Below are positions 15,006 to 17,123 of a stretch of DNA of 64,000 nucleotides, piece after piece. The position numbers were made by a program, and so were the translations under genes. The notes below the pieces were generated by a model. The model did not search any database and was not told the DNA's origin. It was given only the letters and a program-made list of their open reading frames with translations. The stretch is from contig NZ_JALBGD010000001.1 of the NCBI RefSeq assembly GCF_023507705.1, positions 124,001 to 188,000 of the forward strand, written 5' to 3'. Position 1 is the stretch's first letter. Each line of letters opens with the position of its first letter. Origin of the DNA: Stappia sp. WLB 29. GTDB taxonomy: Bacteria; Pseudomonadota; Alphaproteobacteria; Rhizobiales; Stappiaceae.

Positions 15006-15413
15006 TCAGATATCGTCTTTGCGCTCCGGCGGAACAAGGCCTTCGAGACCGCGCAGCAGATCTTCCTCGGACATGCGATCGAACTCGACCGAGCTATCGT
15101 CGACTGCGTTGACTTCGGTGCCGCCCTGATTCTGGGAGGACGTGTTCGGAACCATCGGCACAGCATCGGCCTCCGGCTCGTCCACCTCCACATATTTCTG
15201 CAGCGAGTGGATCAGATCTTCCTTCAGATCCTCGGGGCTGACGGTCTGTTCGGCGACCTCGCGCAGCGCCACGACGGGATTCTTGTCGTTGTCGCGATCG
15301 ATGGTCAGCGGCGAACCGTTCGAGATCATCCGCGCCCGATGGCTCGCAAGCAGCACCAGTTCGAAGCGGTTCTCGACCTTGTCGATGCAGTCTTCGACTG
15401 TCACGCGCGCCAT
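15006..15413 (-). CDS. rpoZ: RNA polymerase omega subunit
   Basis: 135 aa; the core [20 protein letters not shown] and ASHRARMIS plus [14 protein letters not shown] is diagnostic. Omega assists folding of beta-prime and, in other proteobacteria, forms part of a (p)ppGpp site, fitting its place directly upstream of rsh. The extended acidic C-terminal tail after residue 75 is common in alphaproteobacteria. Upstream is a long structured divergent gap. Confidence 0.95.
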
Positions 15414-15550
15414 GGGTATGCTCCATCTAAACTGTTATCAGCAAGCGGCGATATGTACTGTGTTGCACCGCAAGACGCAAGCCTTGCGCGATGTCGCGCT
15501 ACAGTTTTGTTTTTTAATCACGTTTCTAATTTCGCCATGATTTTCTGTAG

Positions 15551-15801
15551 ACTCCTTCGGGAAAGCTGCCGAAGCTCAGTTGCCGTTGCGTGGTAAAATG
15601 GTGTAGGTGGAACTACTCAAAGGCGGTCGAGTATACCGCCCAAAGCAAAAACAGGGGGATGCTTGCAGGATTGCATCCCTCGGGCACGGAAACCGGATGG
15701 AAATCCGGCTTGCAGGTCGATCCGAAAACGGTGTGGAGTGTAGCCTTTTCTCCTGACGCGGTGGGCGAACCCGCGTCGAAAGGCAACTCTGGATATTTTT
15801 T
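15551..15801 (+). ncRNA. Candidate structured RNA/leader with tandem stem-loops
   Basis: The 452-bp divergent gap 15414-15865 has no credible gene but holds successive stem-loops on the plus strand: CTTCGG 15555-15560 with CCGAAG 15569-15574; GGCGGT 15622-15627 with ACCGCC 15635-15640; GGGATGC 15656-15662 with GCATCCC 15673-15679; CCGGAT 15693-15698 with ATCCGG 15703-15708 around a GGAA tetraloop. A long final hairpin spans 15736-15789 (GAGT/ACTC, GCCTTTTC/GAAAGGC, GACGCGG/CCGCGTC) and is followed by a T-run at 15796-15801, as in an intrinsic terminator. CTTGCAGG occurs twice (15662, 15709). The NYN gene starts 65 bp later, so this is either an independent small RNA of about 200 nt or a terminating leader. 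I could not match it to tmRNA, SRP RNA, RNase P RNA or a known riboswitch. Confidence 0.5.
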
Positions 15802-15865
15802 CCGGGAGCGTTTTCTTTCCGGGCCCGTAGATCGTCCTGCATTGCAACGAAAGGTATTCTACGAA

Positions 15866-16459
15866 ATGTTCGACCCGCGAGAGAAGGTGGCGTTGTTTAT
15901 CGATGGCGCGAATTTGTACTCCACCGCGCGTAGCATCGGATTTGATATCGATTACAAGATGCTTCTCCAGGAATTCCAGAAGACCGGATATCTCCTGAGG
16001 GCGTATTATTATACGGCATTGATTGAGGACCAGGAGTATTCGTCGATTCGTCCCTTGATCGATTGGCTAGATTACAATGGTTACAAGGTTGTGACCAAGC
16101 CTGTGAAGGAGTTTGTCGACTCGGCCGGGCGCCGCAAGATCAAAGGCAACATGGACATCGAGCTGGCTGTCGATGCCATGGAGATCGTCGAGCATGTCGA
16201 TCATATCGTGCTGTTCTCCGGTGACGGCGACTTCCGGCCTCTGGTCGAGGCGCTGCAGCGCAAGGGGCGCAAGGTAAGTGTCGTGTCCACCCTGCAGACC
16301 CAGCCGCCGATGATTGCCGACGATCTGCGGCGTCAGGCGGATCACTTCATCGATCTGGCAACGCTCACCAAGAAGGTCGGCCGCGATCCGGCGGAGCGCA
16401 CCCCGCGTCCGGCTCCGCGTCGCAACGACGTGGAAGAAGACGAAGACGACGATTATTGA
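15866..16459 (+). CDS. NYN domain protein (LabA/DUF88 family)
   Basis: 197-aa PIN-like NYN domain, a fold of metal-dependent ribonucleases. Acidic residues expected at the active site are visible: D13 in LFIDGANLY, D97 in GNMDIELAVD, and D120/D122 in FSGDGDFRPL. A strongly acidic tail (VEEDEDDD) ends the protein. The frame stays open up to 15590, but those residues fall in the structured region and look non-coding; MFDPREKVALFIDG is the natural start. A uracil-DNA glycosylase starts 7 bp after its stop, implying one transcript. Substrate RNA is unknown. Confidence 0.85.
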   Translation: MFDPREKVALFIDGANLYSTARSIGFDIDYKMLLQEFQKTGYLLRAYYYTALIEDQEYSSIRPLIDWLDYNGYKVVTKPVKEFVDSAGRRKIKGNMDIELAVDAMEIVEHVDHIVLFSGDGDFRPLVEALQRKGRKVSVVSTLQTQPPMIADDLRRQADHFIDLATLTKKVGRDPAERTPRPAPRRNDVEEDEDDDY

Positions 16460-16466
16460 GAGGCCG

Positions 16467-17123
16467 GTGAGCGTGCTTCATCTGCCCAACCCGGCAAGGG
16501 ATTGTCCCTTCTGTCCGCGGCTCGTGGCGTTTCGCGAGACGCACAGGGCGGCGCAACCGGACTGGTACAACGCGCCTGTGAGAACTTTCTCGGCGCCTGA
16601 TCCGCATCTGCTGATCGTCGGTCTGGCACCGGGGCTGAGAGGGGCGAACCGCACCGGGCGCCCCTTCACCGGCGATTACGCCGGAGACCTGCTTTACGAG
16701 ACGCTTGTCGATTTCGGCTTCGCGCGAGGGCGGTACGAGGCTCATCCGGATGACAGTCTCGAACTCGTTGATGCTGCCATCACCAATGCCGTGCGCTGCG
16801 TGCCGCCGGAGAACAAGCCGACAGGTCCCGAAATTCGGACCTGCCTGCCATTTCTGACGCAGACGATCGACGCGCTGCCGTCGCTGGTCGCGTTGGTGGC
16901 GCTCGGTCGCATCGCTCATGATGCAACGCTGTCGGCCTTGGGCATTCGGCGCGCGGCCCATGCCTTCGGGCACAACGTGCGGCACGAGCTGCGCCCAGGC
17001 CTTACGCTTTTCGACAGCTATCACTGCTCCCGCTACAACACGAATACGGGGAGGTTGACGCGAGAAATGTTCCGCGACGTCTTCACCGCCGTGCGCGCGC
17101 AGGTGGATGCCTGCGCATCCTGA
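16467..17123 (+). CDS. Uracil-DNA glycosylase, family 5 (UdgB type)
   Basis: 218-aa iron-sulfur uracil-DNA glycosylase. Cys residues in DCPFCPRL and in the later AVRCVPP and RTCLPF segments would hold the [4Fe-4S] cluster. Motif 1 GLAPGLRGANRTGRPFTGD and motif 2 DSYHCSRYNTNTGRLT match family 5 (GLAP...; SYH...N..TGRLT), active on uracil and deaminated bases. I start at GTG 16467, giving SVLHLPNPARDCPFC; the upstream open frame overlaps the NYN gene and is not protein-like. The short spacing to the NYN gene suggests translational coupling. Confidence 0.88.
   Translation: MSVLHLPNPARDCPFCPRLVAFRETHRAAQPDWYNAPVRTFSAPDPHLLIVGLAPGLRGANRTGRPFTGDYAGDLLYETLVDFGFARGRYEAHPDDSLELVDAAITNAVRCVPPENKPTGPEIRTCLPFLTQTIDALPSLVALVALGRIAHDATLSALGIRRAAHAFGHNVRHELRPGLTLFDSYHCSRYNTNTGRLTREMFRDVFTAVRAQVDACAS

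Follow-up and report, generated by a model that had tools for sequence, protein, structure and literature searches.

The region from 15607 to 15865 on the plus strand of the window (the window being the whole stretch of 64,000 nucleotides from Stappia sp. WLB 29 that was analysed) is very probably a cis-acting structured leader of the mRNA for an NYN-domain protein. Comparison with related genomes indicates that this 5' leader, which was modelled as R2 and is supported by covariation and by covariance-model matches, carries a conserved RNA structure, in which paired mutations appear to preserve the shape despite rapid change of the letters. The fold, its likely strand and its position next to the NYN gene are all shown by the same sequence comparisons. 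The leader is most likely a cis-acting element of post-transcriptional control, and it probably controls the amount of the NYN enzyme that is made.

The rpoZ/NYN locus and the genomes compared

As the sequence-only reading had stated, the gap between the divergent rpoZ and NYN genes is 452 bases long, based on the open reading frames of the window and their domain matches. The rpoZ gene (15006..15413, minus strand; identified by both Pfam and NCBIfam rpoZ) is a divergent neighbour that lies outside the element, and the NYN gene (15866..16459, plus strand) matches Pfam NYN with an E value of 3.5e-42. Based on this domain and on its invariant aspartates, the product of the latter gene is predicted to be a ribonuclease: Asp 13, 97, 120 and 122 are present in 110 of 110 sequences (the window's copy counted), and we take these residues to be catalytic and the protein to be a nuclease of the DUF88/LabA type. 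Its closest solved structure is 2QIP, an entry of unknown function, and no function for this protein was found in the open-licence literature. A match to the protein was obtained in 100 of the 101 genomes sampled from the order, one of these being weak. A longer NYN frame running through the leader, which is open in the window, was considered and rejected, as 10 of the 14 genomes of the genus have in-frame stops 6-30 codons ahead of the ATG. Directly 3' of NYN and on the same strand lies a gene of the uracil-DNA glycosylase superfamily (16470-17120), which scores below the NCBIfam cut-offs for family 4; due to this arrangement, the leader may control both NYN and this downstream gene.

For comparison, the upstream regions of NYN were collected from the 101 sampled genomes and from 80 named contigs, 15 of the 80 named loci serving as controls. 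The family around the genus Stappia is taken to include Roseibium (g2), Pannonibacter, Pseudovibrio and a second genus (g7) containing Stappia albiluteola.

Parts of the leader

A promoter-like box, TTGCCG ... GTGTAG, occupies 15580..15606 of the plus strand and is the putative promoter of the leader. All 14 genomes of the genus carry its conserved form, TTGC..GTGTA, 282-297 bases upstream of the ATG, and it is also present in 3 of 3 genomes of g7 and in 19 of 20 from Roseibium (in this count, as in the folding test described below, the Roseibium set consists of 19 g2 genomes and L101). The sigma-70 scan reported no site at this box. All of the tandem inverted repeats named in the sequence-only reading exist, but the first of these stems (15555-15574) is upstream of the promoter-like box and outside the RNA; in L010 and L011 it is weakened, and L013 lacks it.

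Within the leader, all parts of which are on the plus strand, hairpin H1 (15622..15640, GGCGGT/ACCGCC) shows changes on both sides in 2 of its 6 pairs in alignment A1 and in 5 of 6 in A6 (the alignments are described in the next section). For hairpin H2 (15656..15679, GGGATGC/GCATCCC), which holds the first CTTGCAGG box in its loop, the corresponding numbers are 1 of 7 and 5 of 7 pairs. Hairpin H3 (15693..15708, CCGGAT/ATCCGG) is the GNRA-capped stem that had been noticed earlier; it is invariant in A1, shows both-sided changes in 2 of 6 pairs in A6, and its GGAA loop is kept in L009-L013 only. A short stretch between H2 and H3, viz. GGGCACG, is invariant in most of the genus. The composite hairpin H6 was likewise correctly located at 15736..15789, but it consists of 17 Watson-Crick pairs rather than about 19, and both-sided changes are found in 2 of these 17 pairs in A1 and in 14 in A6. 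The repeated box described beside two of the stems is present as GCTTGCAGG at 15661-15669 and 15708-15716.

H6 is enclosed by a long-range helix, P4, which was missed in the sequence-only reading. The 5' strand of P4 (15711..15731, viz. 15711-15716, 15718-15722 and 15728-15731) corresponds to the second CTTGCAGG box and its 3' strand is at 15825..15841 (viz. 15825-15828, 15830-15834 and 15836-15841). In the window P4 has 15 pairs with internal loops, of which one is changed on both sides and five on one side in A1, and 10 are changed on both sides in A6; in L015 it has 20 pairs ahead of the inner helices. Duplex prediction found the pairing corresponding to P4 in the genus and in g7. Further, when leaders were folded singly, 19 of 21 (i.e. 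all except L013 and L038) formed at least 6 long-range pairs with the 3' side at most 50 bases before the ATG, the pairs differing from P4 in some of these 19. The Shine-Dalgarno sequence GAAAGG (15849..15854, plus strand, as read from the sequence) is located 7 nt past P4, and its mean predicted unpaired probability is 0.61 in the 14 genomes of the genus, 0.55 in 20 Roseibium and 0.28 in 3 genomes of g7. Since it is outside P4 and is predicted to be rather open, P4 does not appear simply to hide the Shine-Dalgarno sequence.

Two observations concern the loops of these hairpins. The tip hairpin inside P4 (15759-15773 in the window; A4 columns 183-200) has similar loops in the two genera, viz. 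GGGCGAA in Stappia and GCGGGAA in Roseibium, and this loop is a candidate contact site. The loop of H2 (15664-15669) repeats the TGCAGG of P4 and could alternatively pair with CCTGCA at 15836-15841; competition between the H2 loop and P4 for this CCTGCA is a possible switch, and the TGCAGG copy in the H2 loop is invariant in the six A1 genomes only.

Covariation and the strand of the RNA

In plain MAFFT alignments of the whole genus RNAalifold gave no useful fold and, due to this, clade-wise alignments were used. A1-A3 are plain MAFFT alignments, and A4-A6 were each fitted to their own model; the structures for A2 and A3 were drawn from a fold allowing G-U pairs. In A1, which covers six congeners, 6 of 51 pairs have changed on both sides, compared to 2.0 in the shuffled and 0-2 in the slid controls, with 1 of 500 shuffles being as high. 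In A3, based on eleven Roseibium, this is the case for 13 of 21 pairs, compared to 5.9 (shuffled, 0 of 500 as high) and 4-7 (slid). No excess covariation was seen in A2, from four further congeners, where 3 of 57 pairs changed vs 2.6 in shuffled alignments and 284 of 500 shuffles were as high. Among the model-fitted alignments, A6 (14 genomes of the genus and one of g7) gave 36 of 51 pairs, with 19.6 for shuffled and 6-13 for slid controls, and an alignment of 20 Roseibium genomes outside the model building (19 distinct rows) gave 11 of 21, with 6.5 and 2-8, respectively. Compensatory changes in relatives, on which the sequence-only reading had staked its structure, are thus seen in both the Stappia and the Roseibium alignments.

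The pairing of P4 was further examined by strand exchange, in which the binding of each genome's own partner strands is compared with that of strands permuted between genomes; 11 of the 17 Stappia and g7 genomes and 21 of the 25 controls entered this test. A genome's own P4 strands pair more strongly than swapped ones in Stappia with g7 (175 of 100000 permutations as low as the mean), in Roseibium A (4 of 100000) and in Roseibium B (5 of 20000); for Stappia with g7, the own partner is nevertheless the best in only 2 of 11 rows. The test was negative in Pseudovibrio (17910 of 20000), Pannonibacter (10137 of 20000), g5 (20000 of 20000) and the order control (7508 of 20000).

Cells with G-U outnumber those with A-C in A1 (17:2), A2 (30:3), A3 (25:5), A5 (48:11) and A6 (58:17), which points to the NYN strand. 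The cleanest strand evidence comes from A1, because its structure was drawn from the Watson-Crick pairs of the window. An RNA on the NYN (plus) strand is favoured by these sequence counts.

Folding strength compared with shuffled sequences

The sequence-only reading emphasized an unusual amount of structure. The single sequence of the window folds only marginally more strongly than chance and does not decide the question; the structure is shown to be real by comparison with relatives only. For 15545-15805, the plus strand has a z of -1.62, with 11 of 200 shuffles folding equally well, and the minus strand, with a z of -2.20 and 6 of 200 shuffles, does slightly better than the plus strand against its own shuffles. 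Long-range pairing in the window alone is also not exceptional, 12 of 60 shuffles being as high.

In the comparison across genomes, the last 250 bases before the ATG were folded against 60 shuffles each. Mean z values were -2.29 (the window's genus, 14 genomes), -2.21 (g7, 3), -1.61 (Roseibium, 20), -1.37 (Pseudovibrio, 16), -0.85 (Pannonibacter, 5), -0.12 (g5, 3) and -3.25 (g3, a single genome). No folding excess was seen in the order control of 25 other NYN loci (mean z -0.22), which leaves out 19 others (L080-L098), because in most of these the match started within the coding sequence, leaving the start codon unplaced; for two of the control loci used, L077 and L079, the assigned start is two and four codons late. 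Among the Pseudovibrio loci, the sequence of L054 is 2 nt short. The long-range pairing near the ATG, observed vs shuffled, was 17.1 vs 7.5 in the genus, 17.8 vs 6.9 in g7, 12.1 vs 7.2 in Roseibium, 10.3 vs 7.5 in Pseudovibrio and 5.6 vs 7.1 in the order; in L013 it was below the shuffled mean.

Distribution of the leader in related genomes

By DNA search the gap was recovered from 8 of 61 genomes, which all belong to the window's genus (its own genome included), two of them by 53 bases only. Two covariance models were built, viz. R2 from the six congeners and R1 from the eleven Roseibium. R2 matches 13 of the 14 genomes of the genus with E values of 8e-85 to 0.0015, always ending one base before the NYN start, and the fourteenth (L018) is matched at E 1e-9 when its locus alone is searched. 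On 17 loci, 15 match R2 at E <=0.1 (L025 only at 0.051), and L026 and L028 give none. Three Roseibium genomes have short weak matches to R2 (E 0.17 to 0.95), and across 150 genomes spread over the order its two matches are both in the window's genus. For R1, 31 of the 45 g2 genomes give a match below E 1e-19, one in each, three of these 31 having a second weak match (E 0.0105 to 0.897); in Roseibium genomes outside the model building, NYN is directly 3' of 20 of 20 R1 matches. In the window's genus none of the 14 genomes is matched by R1, which gives two weak matches (E 5e-4 and 0.006) across 150 genomes of the order. Overall, the leader gives one strong match per genome and none across genera. 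The genome-wide searches with R1 and R2 used strict filters, and among the candidates scored there are no further copies at this level of sensitivity. The reading of the Stappia and Roseibium leaders as one element would rest on the shared order of their parts.

Other arrangements are seen upstream of NYN in further genera. In ten of the 16 Pseudovibrio (viz. L031, L041, L042, L044, L045, L052, L054, L055, L057 and L064) there is a long near-identical stretch in the last 380 bases before NYN, which is without P4-type pairing and contrasts with the fast-changing leaders of Stappia and Roseibium; this stretch may be another RNA or a DNA element. In Sinorhizobium and Ensifer (L108, L110, L118 and L125) the rpoZ/NYN gap is wider, 463-471 bases, and the last 200 bases before NYN share a palindrome-like TACATTA..TAATGTA.

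Proposed function and alternative explanations

Given the single-sequence z of only -1.62, the stems might be taken for palindromes that arose by chance in a G+C-rich gap, but in view of the covariation in two genera, the strand-exchange test and the flat controls this is highly improbable. The sequence-only reading also proposed an independent small RNA, about 200 nt long and ending near 15800 at the composite hairpin with its T-run. Such an RNA could have its own promoter-like box, and besides the T6 run of the window (15796..15801, plus strand) 11 of the 14 genomes of the genus have a stretch with 5 T in 6 that lies 53-75 bases upstream of the ATG. However, the T-run does not directly follow H6, as had been stated, but is six bases away from it; it is not conserved at this place, as only 4 of 14 genomes (L009-L012) have it next to the hairpin and elsewhere its position is different, and in L015 the T-rich stretch sits inside a helix. 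H6 with the T-run was rejected as an intrinsic terminator on these grounds, and the terminator scan did not report H6, giving instead another site (1 found vs 0.6 expected). Further, P4 extends past the T-run, which makes termination there unlikely, and as P4 covaries and needs sequence beyond the T-run, the conserved fold reaching through P4 to the Shine-Dalgarno sequence, a small RNA of this kind is very unlikely.

Two other explanations retain a leader of the NYN mRNA and differ in what acts on it. If the leader senses a small molecule, temperature or another RNA-binding protein, thereby switching NYN translation, then its conservation beside the ribosome site and the invariance of GGGCACG would be accounted for; nevertheless, it has one strong match per genome, at one gene, and changes fast in sequence between genera with no shared core found by the model of either genus, and we regard sensing as rather unlikely. 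A leader serving one gene, with a kept shape and drifting letters, would also be better explained by a protein or nuclease that recognizes it than by a metabolite riboswitch. Alternatively, RNase III or another general nuclease could process the stacked rod of P4 and H6 and thereby determine how long the NYN mRNA lasts, with no feedback from NYN. Long imperfect duplexes occur in several genomes, such as the 20 pairs of L015, and E. coli RNase III is reported to cut the rnc and pnp leaders (works cited in PMC3997798), but the paired length varies much and in the window P4 has 15 pairs interrupted by internal loops; this explanation is unlikely.

The single most likely mechanism, which we propose tentatively and at less than even chances, is feedback by the encoded NYN nuclease. 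Transcription would start shortly after 15606, and a leader of about 250 nt would be transcribed through into the NYN gene. This leader would fold into H1-H3 and then the long P4 around H6, ending 7 nt upstream of the Shine-Dalgarno sequence, and it would act in cis on its own mRNA via stability or translation: when abundant, the NYN nuclease would bind or cut the leader and its own message would be lost. In favour of such feedback, the gene encodes a predicted nuclease, and control of a nuclease gene by its own leader is known for rne (PMC3997798). Against it, NYN also occurs widely beyond the two genera, where a leader of this kind is lacking, A2 lacks excess covariation, R1 and R2 do not find each other's genus, and the Shine-Dalgarno sequence is predicted to be mostly open. 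It is possible, if somewhat unlikely, that the NYN nuclease has its native RNA target in this leader and that the pair form a self-limiting circuit; if so, this would be the first cognate RNA for an NYN enzyme common in the order, with the Stappia and Roseibium versions having diverged while keeping their shape. The covarying leader provides a concrete RNA to be tested as an NYN substrate and a handle on NYN regulation, and it shows how far a regulatory RNA can drift within one bacterial family, with its pairing kept, beyond the reach of Rfam.

Comparison with known systems

In agreement with the sequence-only reading, the gap matches no known RNA family. With Rfam at gathering scores the whole window gave only one tRNA, located elsewhere, with rne5 and rne-II not being matched, and 15400-15900 gave no match up to E 10; ARAGORN reported one tRNA and no tmRNA in the window. 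Nothing on an NYN leader was found in the open-licence literature. Among the systems compared below, we take the RNase E 5' UTR element to be Rfam RF00040.

The structured intergenic RNAs described in PMC1273637, including that of serC, which folds close to the ribosome site, are of the same class as the NYN leader; unlike these, the NYN leader is without an Rfam match, and NYN and rpoZ are named 0 times in the available part of that source. The rnc (rncO) and pnp leaders of E. coli, which according to works cited in PMC3997798 are cut by RNase III, are similar in being double-stranded leaders near the ribosome site of a nuclease gene. However, RNase III is the agent in those cases, and the NYN leader has no sequence relation shown to them. 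The closest parallels are the structured 5' UTR of E. coli rne, which mediates feedback by RNase E as described in the cited part of PMC3997798, and the rne-II motif of Pseudomonadales (RF01756), as given in the cited part of PMC2864571. The NYN leader differs from both in the fold of the enzyme, in its sequence and structure and in the lack of an Rfam match, and feedback would apply to it by analogy; similar to both, it is a structured cis leader at a gene for a predicted ribonuclease. The NYN leader is a new RNA family, of a kind that is already known, viz. the structured leader of a nuclease gene.
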